Positions 39,627 through 45,065 of a DNA stretch of 64,000 bases are shown piece by piece. A model generated the notes under the pieces. It had not been told where the DNA came from. It ran no database searches and saw only the letters and a program-made list of their open reading frames with translations. Within the stretch, counting starts at the first letter, position 1. Each line of letters starts with the position of its first letter. The DNA lies in the NCBI GenBank assembly GCA_001898385.1, contig MKTT01000113.1:1-64000 (forward strand). Direction: 5' to 3'. The position numbers and the translations under genes were made by a program. Source of the stretch: Planctomycetales bacterium 71-10. Lineage in GTDB: Bacteria > Planctomycetota > Planctomycetia > Isosphaerales > Isosphaeraceae.

Positions 39627-40460
39627 TCAGCAGAACCCGCGAGGCCCGGGGCCGCCGGGCCCGCCGCCGAGGCCGCCGAGGATCAGGTCGAGGTCGCTGG
39701 GCGCGACGCCGGTGATCCCCAGGCGGGTGTAGTCGGCGGCGATCGCCTCGCGCGCCGTCGCCAGGGCCGAAAGCTCGTCGGAATCGACGTCGAGCTTGTC
39801 CGCGACCGTGACGAAGGCGTCGAACGCGGCGTTCACGAGGGCCGTCTCGTCGTCGGTCAGGGTCGAGTCGGTGTCGTCGTCGCCCGTCGCGCCGGCGAAG
39901 GCGGCGAGGAAGGCGTCGCGATAGGACTCGGCCGTGGTGGAGTCGTCGGAGTCGGCCAGCGCCGAGAGGACGCCGTCGGCGACGGTCGCCAGAGCGTCCT
40001 TATCATAGGTGACGCCGGCCTCCCTCAGGGCGTCGAAGGCGTCTCGGAGGGCCTCCCGGTCGGCGTCGGTGACGGACGAGCCCTTGAGGACGGCCGTCGC
40101 GGCCGTCTGGTACGATTTCAGGTCGGCGGCGAGCTGCGTGTCGCGGACGCCGCCGCCCCACCGGCCGCCGGGGCCGCCGAAGCCTCCCGGCCCGCCGCGA
40201 CGGCCTTCGAAGCCGCCCACCTGGGCCGTCGAGGAGACGTCCCCGGAGCTTTCGGACGTCGAGCCGAAGGAGCCGGCCCGCGCGAACATGGCGGCCCGCG
40301 CGGCCATGCCGCCGCCCAGGCCGCCCATCCGCGACAGGACCAGGCGCCCCTCCAGCCCGTCGACCGTGGGCTGCCATTGCTTGTTCCGCCTCGCCGACGC
40401 GCCCGACTTCTCCCCCTTCGGGGGGATCAGCCGCCGCCACAGGCTCTTCGAATGAATCAT
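39627..40460 (-). CDS. LEPR-XLL-like extracellular protein
   Basis: The 277-residue protein has a basic N-terminus (MIHSKSLWRRLIPPKGEKSG) leading to VDGLEGRLVLSRMGG, a variant of the planctomycete LEPR-XLL motif. Gly-rich stretches (GGPGGFGGPGGRWGGG) follow, then an Ala/Asp-rich helical region (about 115-250) with many DxD pairs, such as GDDDTDSTLTDDE, that may bind calcium. It ends in another Gly/Pro-rich stretch. It has no catalytic motif. The ATG at 40460 has GGGAGA upstream; longer in-frame starts exist. It is transcribed away from a second LEPR-XLL gene at 40793, so the two may share control. Confidence 0.75.
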   Translation of the reverse strand: MIHSKSLWRRLIPPKGEKSGASARRNKQWQPTVDGLEGRLVLSRMGGLGGGMAARAAMFARAGSFGSTSESSGDVSSTAQVGGFEGRRGGPGGFGGPGGRWGGGVRDTQLAADLKSYQTAATAVLKGSSVTDADREALRDAFDALREAGVTYDKDALATVADGVLSALADSDDSTTAESYRDAFLAAFAGATGDDDTDSTLTDDETALVNAAFDAFVTVADKLDVDSDELSALATAREAIAADYTRLGITGVAPSDLDLILGGLGGGPGGPGPRGFC

Positions 40461-40792
40461 GCTGCGTCTCCCGGTGGTGCTGAAGGCCCGCTCTGAATAC
40501 CCGAGTGGTTGAGACATGCGATGCCAGGTGTGGGGCGGCCCGGGTGGCGCCTCGGGCCCTCGCCGCCCCGAATGAGGGATCCGACGTGATGCCCCCAAGC
40601 GCGCGCCGCGGCGAGGAAATCGGGGAAATGGCCTCCGCGAAAAACGCCGATGGACGTAGACTGGTCCGGTGGCAGGGAGGCCCCGTCGCGAGGTTCCCTC
40701 TCGCGCCGTGGGCGACGGTCCCATCCCGCCCGCCCCCTTCGCCGCCCGCGCCAGGTCTCCGAACGGATCGTTCGCGCAGGGAGAAGCCGTCG
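40461..40792. other. Intergenic region between divergent LEPR-XLL genes
   Basis: The 332 bp carry no gene I can support, although several frames are open across them. TAGACT near 40660 could be a -10 box for the plus-strand gene, but no matching -35 was found. A GC-rich imperfect hairpin lies near 40530-40560. The region must hold both divergent promoters. Confidence 0.4.
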
Positions 40793-42004
40793 ATGCGGAG
40801 AGATCCTCGACATCCGGGCCGCTTCACGCCCGCCCTCCAGCCCCTGGAGGGGAGGGTCGTGCTGAACTACGGCCCGGGGCCGCCGGTCGCGATCCTGACC
40901 GCGCCGATCGCGGCCCCGACGAGCCTCGCCCCCGAGGCCGACGCGATGATCGCGCCTTTCTCCGGCCCCCACGGCGACAGGCCCGCGACGCCCGGCCTAA
41001 CGAGCGGCTTCAACCTTCCCCCGCTCGCGAATCGAGCCGACTTCGGTGCCGCGCCGTCCGGCTACGGCGGCTACAAGGCCTTCTTCGGCGGGGGCTTCTT
41101 CGGCTTCAGCTTCGGCCGAGGCCCGGGAGGGCCGTGGCGCGTCGGGGGCCGGCCCGATGGCGACGCGTCGTCGTTCGCGACCTCGGACGACTCCCCCTTC
41201 GTCGGACCGCCCGCGCCGGAGAGCCCCGACGCGCCGGCGTCGGCCCAGGCCGGCTCGGCGACGCCGCCTCGCGGCGGCGAGTCGGGATGGGCGCGATTCG
41301 GCCCGTTTGCGCAGCCGCAGTCGGGCCCCGGCCCGACCGCGGCCCAGCCGAGCGAGTACCAGTCCCGGCCGGGGGGCGCGATCCCCAGGGGCCCCTTTGC
41401 GCCGCCGGTCCTCATCGAATCCACGTCCCCGGCCACGCCCGCGGCCCCCGGGCCCCCGGCCCCCGGCCCGCCGCCGCCCCTCGCCGCGGCCGGCGCGCCC
41501 GACCTCGCCCGCCCGCTCGCGGCGACCAACGTGGCCTGGAGCGCGACGGTGGCGTCGTTCAGCCTCGGGACGTCGGCCCCGGCCGACGTCCGGGCCATCG
41601 CCCTCGGAGCCCCCACGACCGCCTCGGGGGCGGGCGGCGAGGCCGTCGCCGCGGCCCCCCAGGGCGAGGGCGATCCCCGGGCGGCGTCGCCCGACGCCGC
41701 GACGGCCGACGCCGACGCCGCCCCCCCGGCCGAGGCCCCGGCCCCGATCGGCGCGGGCGTGCTGACGGGATTCCTGCCGCTCGACCGCGCGACGGTCGAC
41801 CTGGCGCTGGAGAAAGTGATGGGGCAGTTGGACGACCTGGGATCGCCGCTCGCCGGGCCGTCGAGCCGGCTGCCGCTGGTCGTCCCGGTGGCCGCCGCGC
41901 TGGCGACCGCGGAGGCGGCCCGGAGGTGGCGGGCGCGGGCATCGGTCCCGGGGCCGTCGGCCGCCCGGGGCTCGCGGTTCTCCTCGCTCCGCGGACTGTC
42001 ATGA
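40793..42004 (+). CDS. LEPR-XLL-like Pro/Ala-rich protein upstream of sigma/kinase genes
   Basis: The 403-residue protein begins with a basic segment and ALQPLEGRVVLNYGPGPP, an LEPR-XLL variant. The body is low-complexity Pro, Ala and Gly (PAAPGPPAPGPPPPLAAAG), with an early GYKAFFGGGFFGFSFGRGPG stretch. Near the C-terminus RLPLVVPVAAALATAEAARR is hydrophobic followed by positive charge, possibly a membrane anchor with a short cytoplasmic tail. GGGAGAA precedes the ATG. The ECF sigma gene starts 25 bp after the stop, so they are probably cotranscribed. A sensor or anti-sigma-like role is inference from position only. Confidence 0.7.
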   Translation: MRRDPRHPGRFTPALQPLEGRVVLNYGPGPPVAILTAPIAAPTSLAPEADAMIAPFSGPHGDRPATPGLTSGFNLPPLANRADFGAAPSGYGGYKAFFGGGFFGFSFGRGPGGPWRVGGRPDGDASSFATSDDSPFVGPPAPESPDAPASAQAGSATPPRGGESGWARFGPFAQPQSGPGPTAAQPSEYQSRPGGAIPRGPFAPPVLIESTSPATPAAPGPPAPGPPPPLAAAGAPDLARPLAATNVAWSATVASFSLGTSAPADVRAIALGAPTTASGAGGEAVAAAPQGEGDPRAASPDAATADADAAPPAEAPAPIGAGVLTGFLPLDRATVDLALEKVMGQLDDLGSPLAGPSSRLPLVVPVAAALATAEAARRWRARASVPGPSAARGSRFSSLRGLS

Positions 42005-42029
42005 ACGCCCCGCCGCCGGAGGGCATCCC

Positions 42030-42617
42030 ATGAGCGAAGAGTCCCTGGATCGCTGGATCGAGCGGCTGAACGACGGCGACCCCGCGGCCGTCGAGCGCGT
42101 GTTCGTCGCCTACGAGCCGTACCTCCGCATCATCGTCCGGCGCCGCCTCGGCCGCGGCCTCCGCCCCAAGGTGGACTCGGGCGACATCGTCCAGTCCGTG
42201 TTCGTCGACTTCGTCGAGGGGGTCCGCGACGGCGGCTGGCGGTTCGCCGGGCGGGCCCAGCTCCTGGCGTTCCTCCGCCGGGTCGCGGCGCGTCGGCTGG
42301 CCGACCGCTGCCGCAAGCACCGCCATTCGATCGGCCGCGAGCAGTCGCTCGACGAGACCGAGGCCGGCGACCACCCCCGCTCCCCCCTGCCCCGCCCCAG
42401 CCAGGAGGCCCAGGGTCGAGAGTTCTGGGAGCGCGTGCTGCTGGCCTGCCCGCCCGCCCATCGCGACATCGTCCGCCTGCGCCGCGACGGCCTCCGGCTC
42501 AACGAGATCGCCGCCCGCACCGGGCTGCACGAGGGGAGCGTCAGGCGGATCCTCTACGACCTGGCGCGCCGGCTCTCCTTGGGCCGTCGCTCCGAGGCCG
42601 CGGGCGACCCGGACTGA
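42030..42617 (+). CDS. ECF-type RNA polymerase sigma factor
   Basis: The product has 195 residues. Region 2 is visible in AYEPYLRIIVRRRLGRGLRP and VDSGDIVQSVFVDF (the -10-binding helix begins with DIVQ). A Pro-rich linker follows, and region 4 has a helix-turn-helix (LRLNEIAARTGLHEGSVRRILYD is the recognition part). This is the planctomycete-type ECF group usually found beside Ser/Thr kinases. No anti-sigma factor gene is adjacent. The kinase starts 3 bp after the stop, so kinase-dependent control of this sigma factor is likely, as proposed for kinase-linked ECF groups. Confidence 0.92.
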   Translation: MSEESLDRWIERLNDGDPAAVERVFVAYEPYLRIIVRRRLGRGLRPKVDSGDIVQSVFVDFVEGVRDGGWRFAGRAQLLAFLRRVAARRLADRCRKHRHSIGREQSLDETEAGDHPRSPLPRPSQEAQGREFWERVLLACPPAHRDIVRLRRDGLRLNEIAARTGLHEGSVRRILYDLARRLSLGRRSEAAGDPD

Positions 42618-42620
42618 GCC

Positions 42621-45065
42621 ATGGGAGACGAGCCTTCCCGATTCGCCCGCATCTCCGACGAGATCGCGGACATGGCCGCCGCCTTCGGGCGCGGCGAGCC
42701 GATCTCGGCCGCCGAGGTCCTCGCGCGCCGGCCCGACCTCGACCCCGAGGCCGCCATCCGGCTCATCTACGAGGAGGTGAGCCTCCGCCGCGAGTCCGGC
42801 CAGCGGGTCGACACCTCCGAGGTCGTCCGCCGCCATCCCCGCTGGGGGGACGAGCTGCGCGACCTCTTCGAATGCGACCGGCTCATCCGCGCCTCCGGCG
42901 TCGCGCCGGTCGTCGACCTGCCCGACGCCGGCGAGACGCTGGGCTCGTTCGCGCTGCTGGAGGAGCTGGGCCGGGGGGCCTCGGGCCGCACGTTCCTGGC
43001 GACCGACCCGACGCTCGCCGACCGCCCGGTCGTGGTCAAGGTCGTCTCCGACGACCAGGACGAGCACCTGGCCCTGGCCCCGTTGCGACACACCCACATC
43101 GTCCCCCTGTTCTCCGAGCAGTCGATCCCCGATCGCGGCCTGCGCATGCTGTGCATGCCGTACCTGGGCGGGGCGAGCCTGGCGGAGGTGCTGGCGGACC
43201 TGGCGCCGGAGCCGATCGCGCGCCGCTCGGGGGCGCGGATGCTGGAGGCCCTGGAGCGCCGCAGCCGGCCGATCCCGGGCCCGCCGCCGGCCGTCGGGCC
43301 GTTCCGGCGCGGGCTGGAGGAGGCGTCGTACGTCGACGCGATCGCCTGGGTCGCCGCCTGCCTCGCCGACGCGCTGCACCACGCCCACGAGCGCGGGATC
43401 GTCCACATGGACGTCAAGCCGTCGAACGTGCTGGTGACGGCCGACGGCCAGCCGATGCTGCTGGACTTCCACCTGGCCCGCGCGCCGATCCGCGCCGGCG
43501 ACCGCGTGGCCGGACGGCTGGGGGGGACGCCGGGCTGGATGGCCCCCGAGCAGGAGGCGGCGATGCTGGCCGTCTCCGGCGACCGCCCCGCCCCGGCCGA
43601 CGTCGACGGCCGCGCCGACATCTATTCCCTGGGCCTGCTGCTGCGCGAGGCCCTGGGGGCGGCGCCGGCCGGCGAGGACGCCTCGCGGTTCCGGCGGCCG
43701 GCCGGCGTGGGGGTCGCGCTGGCGGACGTCGTGCGGAAGTGCCTCGCCGCCGATCCCCGCGACCGCTACCCCGACGCCGCCCGGCTCGCCGACGACCTCC
43801 GCCGCCAGCTCAACGACCTGCCGCTGAGGGGCGTCGGCAACCGCGACCCCATCGAGCGCTGGGGCAAGTGGCGGCGGCGGCACCCCGGCGCGTTCGCCTG
43901 GGGGATCACCCTGGCGACCACGGCCGCCGCCCTCGCCGTCGCCGGCGGGGCCTATTACGCCTCCGTCGCCCAGGGCCTGGGACGGGCGCAGGCGGCGCTG
44001 GAGGGGGGCCGCCGCGACCTGGCCTCCGGCCGGTTCGACTCCGCCGACCGCCTGCTCCGCGACGGCCTCGCCGAGGCGGAAGCCCTGCCGATCGGCGGCG
44101 ACCTCGCCGCGGAGATCGAGGCGCAGCTCCGGCTGACCGCGCACGCGCGGCTCGCCGCCGACCTCCACGCCCTGGCCGACTCGATCCGCTTCCGCTACGG
44201 CGTCGAGCTGCCCGAAGGCGACGAGGCCCGCGCCCGGGCCGACGCCTGCCGGTCGCTCTGGGACGCCCGCGACCGACTCCTCGACGGCCCCGGCCCCACC
44301 CTCGACGCCGCCGCCGAGGCCCGCATCCGGGCCGACATGGCCGAGTTGGTCGCCCTCCGCGTCGACCTGCTCGCCCGCGAGCCCTCCGACGAGGGCCGCG
44401 CCGAGGCCCTGCGGATCCTGGACGAGGCCGAGGCCGCCCTCGGGCCCGACGCCGCGATCGACGCCCGCCGCGAGCGGCTCGCCGGCCGGGCCGACGGCCC
44501 CCGCGCCCCGCGCACCGCCCGCGACCACGACGAGCGCGGCCGATACCTCCTCCGCTCCGGCCGCGTGGCCGAGGCCGCCGGGGCGTTCGAACGGGCGCTG
44601 GACCTGCGCCCCCAGGAGTTCTGGCCCAACTTCTACGCCGGGCTCTGCGCCTTCCGCCTGGGCCGGTACGAGCCCGCCGCCGCCTGGTTCCACGCCTGCT
44701 GCGCGATCGCCCCCGACATCGCCGCCTGCCCCTACCACCTCGGCCTCGCGCACGAGGCGCTCGACCTGCCCGAGCGGGCGCACCGCGACTACTCCCGAGC
44801 CCTGGAGCTGGACCCGTCCCTGGCCCCGGCCTGGCTCAACCGCGGCGTCCTGGAATACAAGGCCGGCCGGGCCGACCGGGCCGCCGCCGACTTCCGGGCC
44901 GGCGCTGACGCCGGCCCCGATCGCGAGACCCTGGGCCGCCTGCGCTACAACCTGGCCCTGGCCCGCCGCGCCCTCGGCGAGCGCGACGCCGCCCGCGCCG
45001 ACGCCGAGGAGGCCCTCCGGCTGGGGGTCGAGGAGGCGCGGACGCTCCTCGACGCCCCGCGCTGA
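42621..45065 (+). CDS. Membrane serine/threonine kinase with TPR domain, linked to ECF sigma factor
   Basis: The 814-residue protein has an N-terminal helical region of about 100 residues that resembles the conserved head of planctomycete sigma-linked kinases. The kinase domain (about 107-400) has GRGASGRTF, Lys140 in PVVVKVV, HMDVKPSNVL with catalytic Asp264, DFH (282-284) replacing DFG, and GWMAPEQ. HMD instead of HRD means it is a non-RD kinase, so activation-loop phosphorylation may not control it. A single TM segment lies near 430-455. TPR-type helices follow to the end (EAAGAFERALDLRPQEFWPN, YSRALELDPSLAPAWLNRGV). It probably senses by the outer TPR part and acts on the adjacent sigma factor. 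Confidence 0.93.
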   Translation: MGDEPSRFARISDEIADMAAAFGRGEPISAAEVLARRPDLDPEAAIRLIYEEVSLRRESGQRVDTSEVVRRHPRWGDELRDLFECDRLIRASGVAPVVDLPDAGETLGSFALLEELGRGASGRTFLATDPTLADRPVVVKVVSDDQDEHLALAPLRHTHIVPLFSEQSIPDRGLRMLCMPYLGGASLAEVLADLAPEPIARRSGARMLEALERRSRPIPGPPPAVGPFRRGLEEASYVDAIAWVAACLADALHHAHERGIVHMDVKPSNVLVTADGQPMLLDFHLARAPIRAGDRVAGRLGGTPGWMAPEQEAAMLAVSGDRPAPADVDGRADIYSLGLLLREALGAAPAGEDASRFRRPAGVGVALADVVRKCLAADPRDRYPDAARLADDLRRQLNDLPLRGVGNRDPIERWGKWRRRHPGAFAWGITLATTAAALAVAGGAYYASVAQGLGRAQAALEGGRRDLASGRFDSADRLLRDGLAEAEALPIGGDLAAEIEAQLRLTAHARLAADLHALADSIRFRYGVELPEGDEARARADACRSLWDARDRLLDGPGPTLDAAAEARIRADMAELVALRVDLLAREPSDEGRAEALRILDEAEAALGPDAAIDARRERLAGRADGPRAPRTARDHDERGRYLLRSGRVAEAAGAFERALDLRPQEFWPNFYAGLCAFRLGRYEPAAAWFHACCAIAPDIAACPYHLGLAHEALDLPERAHRDYSRALELDPSLAPAWLNRGVLEYKAGRADRAAADFRAGADAGPDRETLGRLRYNLALARRALGERDAARADAEEALRLGVEEARTLLDAPR

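Follow-up and report, generated by a model that had tools for sequence, protein, structure and literature searches.

Planctomycetes have many ECF sigma factors that are linked to kinases, and few of the signals, promoters and targets of these factors are known. The closest described systems are the ECF43 pairs EcfP-PknT of Vibrio and EcfK-PknS of Xanthomonas, where the ECF gene, as in the locus described here, adjoins the gene of a transmembrane Hanks-type kinase and where, also as here, no anti-sigma gene is present according to the excerpts of the two accounts used for the comparison (PMC8999054, PMC13147305). The ECF43 factors have lost the acids of sigma2.2 and, in the same excerpts, regain the charge by phosphorylation of Thr (PMC8999054), while EcfK also has phosphosites in the linker (PMC13147305). 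The hallmark of ECF promoters is AAC in the -35 and CGT in the -10 element (PMC8103513). The planctomycete export tag PF07595 has the Studholme consensus RRLxxExLExRxLLA (PMC8567305), and the TPRs of planctomycete membrane Ser/Thr kinases are predicted to be periplasmic (PMC11032199).

The stretch of DNA analysed here, the window, is 64,000 nucleotides long and belongs to the 7.7 Mb genome of Planctomycetales bacterium 71-10, which its named relatives place in the Isosphaeraceae. It contains a three-gene operon for the tagged protein P0002, an ECF sigma factor and a kinase, with the gene of a second tagged protein, P0001, diverging from it (Table 1). A sequence-only reading had described this divergent pair, with 332 bp between P0001 and P0002, 25 bp between P0002 and the ECF gene and 3 bp between the ECF and kinase genes, which agrees with the gene coordinates, and both tags were found where it saw them, at residues 36-43 in P0001 and 18-25 in P0002. 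The sigma factor and the TPR-bearing kinase that it placed behind P0002 are backed by Pfam matches (Sigma70_ECF 1.9e-10, Pkinase 6.8e-19, TPRs 2.3e-18); domain scans of P0001 and P0002 gave nothing significant. Its possible C-terminal anchor could only partly be retained, being plausible for the right-hand protein P0002 (RLPLVVPVAAALATAEAARRWR) and not for the left-hand P0001, which is without a convincing anchor since its best 19-residue hydrophobicity is 1.15 (LGITGVAPSDLDLILGGLG) and its C-terminus reads ...GPRGFC.

Table 1. Features of the locus (positions in the window).
Feature	Position	Strand	Description
P0001, 277 aa	39627..40460	-	Divergently encoded; carries the tag LEGRLVLS, a stretch rich in Gly and an all-helical domain
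P0001 helical domain	39660..40175	-	
Candidate ECF promoter directed at P0001	40579..40606	-	-35 GCGCGCGC 40606-40599, N16, -10 GGAT 40582-40579; based on its orientation, the constant spacer of 16 bases and co-variation with sigma2.4
P0002, 403 aa	40793..42004	+	Tagged (LEGRVVLN), predicted to be membrane-anchored; gene 1 of operon
P0002 conserved C-terminal module (VLTGFLPLDRATVDLALEK..), with weak TM stretch and tail rich in Arg	41735..42001	+	A1 profile match
ECF sigma factor, 195 aa	42030..42617	+	sigma2.2 DSGDIVQS, linker PRPS
Membrane Ser/Thr kinase, 814 aa	42621..45065	+	N-terminal kinase (HMDVKPSN, DFH)
Kinase parts			TM at about residues 422-445, then helical region, C-terminal TPRs 633-811

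The ECF factor was sought in relatives and in 45 Isosphaeraceae genomes, 31 of which carry it at 42 places (E <= 1e-40), and the DNA around these places was read by means of six-frame profiles and a gene caller based on codon usage. A tagged P0002-type gene lies immediately 5' of the ECF gene in 42 of the 43 Isosphaeraceae loci of the ECF clade, a count that includes a few loci at contig ends where the P0002-type gene is only partly visible, and nearly all of the loci that extend far enough have the kinase gene next. The three-gene unit was also found in Gemmataceae and in Pirellulales MAGs, and among the named carriers are Singulisphaera acidiphila DSM 18658 (L152), Singulisphaera sp. GP187 (L146), Aquisphaera insulae (L141), Limnoglobus roseus (L183) and Planctomycetes bacterium TBK1r (L176). 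The sequence-only reading would have been refuted by a lack of conservation in relatives, but the gene order is kept, and this supports its proposal of a single signalling unit made up of surface protein, kinase and sigma factor. Chance adjacency can be ruled out, since the genome carrying the window has only about 30 weak PF07595 matches, all of them sub-threshold, and yet nearly every ECF orthologue has a tagged gene upstream. The tagged gene is absent where an ECF-kinase pair lies outside the clade and has a DFN kinase (L058, L196, L197, L204), and also from the ECF-kinase paralogues of the same genome as the window (L059-L061). The one exception among the 43 loci has a lone clade ECF gene without P0002 or kinase, followed by a P0001-type tagged gene (L041, G009:C234, relative 0 to +1837); it is a rearranged or orphan copy, and complete copies are present in the same genome.

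Among the 45 Isosphaeraceae genomes, 30 have both the ECF factor and the P0002 module, 13 have neither and two are discordant (Fisher 2.6e-9, on counts that ignore phylogeny), and in one of the discordant genomes a diverged P0002-like gene could be recognised by eye (L057). The two states occur even within a single genus (g1), both genes being present in four genomes and both absent in two. Five loci, for which no ECF gene was found, keep a P0002-type gene immediately 5' of the same type of kinase (L103, L104, L105, L106, L108), which argues that the constant partner of the tagged protein is the kinase. These five loci could be a form of the system that has two genes and a different output.

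The start of P0002 is backed by GAGAAGCCGTCGATGCGGAG, which is conserved in three species. P0002-type proteins are Arg-rich at the N-terminus, with the tag LExRxLLS, and a linker that varies leads to the conserved module, a weak hydrophobic stretch (in P0002 with a 19-residue mean hydrophobicity of 1.34) and an Arg cluster, and the stop codon of their genes frequently overlaps the ECF start in the family loci. The C-terminal module, with the consensus xLLTxFLPFDRxxLexAIDxFL..LG, is conserved while the rest of the protein is not, the middle being variable and of low complexity. Neither P0001 nor P0002 matched the PF07595 and LEPR profiles above threshold, and the export tag was called by its consensus, an Arg-rich N-terminus followed by LExRxLLS, which is present in the window genes and in 42 of 43 family operons; a search of the genome with NF012209 (LEPR-8K) gave no match, but its positive control was silent too. 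That the tagged proteins would be located at the surface is taken by analogy from the published reading of the tag as an export signal (PMC8567305). The single C-terminal anchor, the short inner tail and the position next to the ECF gene might point to a membrane anti-sigma factor, whose inner tail would hold the ECF factor until the kinase releases it, and anti-sigma factors are the commonest partners of ECF factors (PMC8103513). We consider this highly improbable, as domain scans found no anti-sigma domain in P0002, the tail of about 25 residues is poorly conserved, and the pairing with the ECF factor is not obligatory, five P0002-type loci having no ECF gene.

The sigma factor has the sigma2 and sigma4 regions only, as ECF factors do, and scores above the cut-off for PF07638 (1.9e-10) and TIGR02937 (56 bits against 42.9). 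Its sigma2.2 follows the pattern D-S/T-x-D-x-V-Q-S, with QS in place of the usual QE, and D49 and D52 are invariant in a 13-row alignment. Like an ECF43 factor it has a Hanks-type kinase next to it, 3 bp downstream and kept in nearly all loci, but it has not lost the acidic residues that are missing from the sigma2.2 DAED motif in that group, and because both Asp are retained the clade does not belong to ECF43 and the charge-restoring mechanism does not apply as such. The linker Ser (PRPS[EQ]) is nearly invariant in the clade, and the conserved S50 and S56 of sigma2.2 and S124 of the linker are candidate phosphosites.

All clade kinases that are covered over the catalytic region have HxDxKxxN without Arg, and DFH replacing DFG, and the window kinase is indeed non-RD, as had been noted from the sequence, where its DFH had gone unremarked. 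It could on these grounds be a pseudokinase that only serves as a scaffold. Degenerate pseudokinases usually lose their catalytic and metal-binding residues, whereas an alignment of 34 kinases shows no variation at the catalytic Lys140, Asp264, Lys266 and Asn269 or at the metal-binding Asp282, and the residues expected of an active Hanks-type kinase (the catalytic Lys K140, D264 of HxD, N269 and D282 of DFx) are all in place. An active enzyme is for this reason likelier than a dead one, and we find the scaffold improbable. An AlphaFold model of the kinase (pLDDT 87.6, pTM 0.48) has a kinase domain, a TM helix, a helical region and TPRs, and its best match in the PDB is PknG.

An alignment of the divergent intergenic regions revealed one element that is kept in five loci. 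It was at first read as CATC/ATCC-N-GCGCGC toward the operon, a reading that was dropped because the opposite strand gives GCGCGCGC-N16-CGAT/GGAT toward the divergent gene, an orientation that is shared with unlinked genes, and it was resolved to GCGCGCGC-N16-[CG]G[ACT]T reading toward P0001. The sequence-only reading had pointed to 40461-40792 as the place to look for the motif of the sigma factor, and a candidate is present there, about 120 bp before the P0001 start. The site is found in forward orientation before 5 of 9 linked and 10 of 24 unlinked P0001-type genes and in reverse before none of either (shuffles of the unlinked set gave 0.17, and the mean of the shuffle controls was at most 0.2). 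The spacer is 16 in 28 sequences, while any other spacer from 6 to 29 occurs in at most six, and the strict form is present in only 22 of the 43 linked loci, about half. The upstream regions of the operons have the site pointing away in 13 of 44 cases and toward the operon in one, which rules out a general autoregulation of the operon; the promoter of L042 is a rare case that points at P0002.

This orientation also bears on whether P0002 serves purely as output, as a structural protein of the surface that is co-transcribed with the regulators and has no part in signalling. The variable, low-complexity middle of P0002 would fit such a role, and so would the fact that the other predicted ECF targets are likewise tagged surface proteins. 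The promoter however rarely faces P0002, the C-terminal module is conserved when the rest of the protein is not, and P0002 stays with the kinase where the ECF factor is gone, which together make a pure output role unlikely.

The -10 element co-varies with region 2.4 of the neighbouring sigma factor, and this ties the promoter to the ECF clade: [AC]RRxADR goes with GGAT (4/4), TYNH with CGAT (4/4 intergenic sites), ARNR with CGCT (12/15 sites) and THNR with CGTT. Direct recognition predicts such a covariation, although the clades are not independent of each other. The suggestion that the ECF factor controls the divergent tagged gene gains support from this conserved and P0001-directed promoter. 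The element might instead be read by another sigma factor, the link to the operon being historical only. Next to the AAC -35 and CGT -10 that mark ECF promoters (PMC8103513), a CG-rich -35 is unusual, and the contrast between genomes is weak: 51 sites were found in ECF-positive genomes and one in ECF-negative genomes, an excess that is suggestive but against the spacing control not significant (P = 0.16), with background rates that differ between the genome sets. Against another sigma factor speak the -10 variant that tracks sigma2.4 of the neighbouring ECF factor, the CGTT form, which fits the ECF -10 hallmark, and the occurrence of sites on either flank of the operon, and we give this explanation very little credence.

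The family-wide form GCGCGCGCTT-N14-SGMT gave 52 sites, at least 14 of which precede tagged surface genes, whereas none of the 18 sites of a wrong-spacing control (the same words with an 11-base spacer) does. Since the motif was defined from linked as well as unlinked loci, only the sites after the kinase and the targets not of the P0001 type are independent tests. Six tagged targets lie outside the discovery set (L218, L240, L245, L230, L232, L049). In eight loci the promoter is not divergent but located immediately 3' of the kinase, where it leads to a short tagged gene (L049, L069, L081/L230) or to a P0001-type gene (L071), and no tagged gene was recognised behind the site in L045, L050, L051 and L072. 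The divergent site can also lead to another short tagged gene (L048, L074, L078) or to a sulfotransferase-like gene (L063, L064). In L218 and L240 the promoter is followed by genes of tagged proteins whose start is TPxQVRxAYG-like and which resemble S53 (sedolisin-type) peptidases, and an S53-like tagged protein adjoins a P0001-type gene in L039 (-3949 to -2711). Two genomes (L225, L226) have a CsrA-like gene (MLVLTRKIRETIIIGG.., MLVLSRKVNEAIVIGG..) that is preceded by a GCGCGCGC-N16-CGAT site, and CsrA may belong to the ECF regulon. Two acyltransferase-type membrane genes in the same genome as the window have promoter-like sites before them (L115 and L124, contigs C3 and C17) and are candidate targets. 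Two ECF-negative genomes (L113 in G002, L114 in G004) have a common GCGCGCGCATTTTTG...CGAT site before an apparent B12-dependent ribonucleotide reductase gene, which is probably unrelated to the clade ECF factor.

P0001 is the predicted target in the window. Members of its family adjoin the ECF gene in nine more of the loci examined (L036-L041, L055, L057, L073) and lie 3' of the kinase in L071. Strong matches to its domain (E < 1e-17) are present in 26 of the 31 ECF-positive genomes and in none of the 14 ECF-negative ones, a contrast that ignores phylogeny and is partly biased by a profile built from linked members; a strict linkage of the family to the ECF factor is ruled out by unlinked and distant members. 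The domain forms a family of its own without significant Pfam match, and is a tandem duplicate in L040, L071 and others. Its model is all-helical (pLDDT 77), and a comparison with the PDB gave no match (best E 2.3).

The conserved operon, the anatomy of its three proteins, their joint presence and absence, and a promoter that is oriented, has a fixed spacer and co-varies with the sigma factor are the base for a model that we hold with moderate confidence, a three-protein surface-signalling cassette where the ECF factor turns on tagged surface proteins. P0002 would be exported by its N-terminal tag, and its C-terminal helix would anchor it in the membrane, the Arg-rich tail being inside and the juxtamembrane module (FLPFDRxxL...) outside, beside the outward TPR and helical part of the kinase, which it would tune. 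Inside, the kinase would modify the ECF factor, most simply by phosphorylating one of the candidate Ser or a Thr in sigma2.2 or the linker, and the active factor would then read its promoter and activate tagged surface proteins, in the window the divergent P0001. A more speculative idea, to which we give a rather low probability, is that P0002 senses the state of export, because its tag is that of the proteins activated by the ECF factor; the outer TPR part of the kinase would read the arrival or assembly of P0002 at the surface. If so, the cell could match the production of tagged proteins to the capacity of the export route, in a surface-export feedback loop via a kinase and an ECF factor. 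The cassette offers a concrete model for the control of the planctomycete cell surface, and for one ECF clade it predicts a promoter, targets and a partner that would act as sensor; the FLPFDR module and the DFH kinase are a sequence handle for spotting the system in other genomes.

In comparison with ECF43, the present factor keeps both Asp where that group is without the acidic DAED motif, the kinase differs in its DFH, and there is a tagged surface protein, which the excerpts of the ECF43 accounts do not describe (PMC8999054, PMC13147305). ECF59, ECF61, ECF62 and ECF217 are, like the factor here, planctomycete ECF factors encoded with kinases (PMC8999054); they were compared by description only, and an upstream tagged membrane protein and the promoter go unmentioned in the excerpts concerned. 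P0001, P0002 and their orthologues resemble PF07595 proteins in the Arg-rich N-terminus followed by LExRxLLS (PMC8567305), but the profile matches of P0001 and P0002 are below threshold, and known carriers of the tag are frequently giant proteins whereas P0002 has about 400 aa and a C-terminal anchor. Mycobacterium PknG with GlnX/GlnH is similar in that a TPR-bearing Ser/Thr kinase is fed by a membrane protein relaying an outside signal (PMC11032199), but PknG is soluble with an inner TPR, while the present kinase has its TPRs after a TM helix and a sigma factor as its output. In this comparison, outside of which the main ECF classification literature lies, kinase-linked ECF factors are known already, while the surface-protein partner and the promoter seem new, and the cassette joins such factors to the export tag of planctomycete surface proteins.
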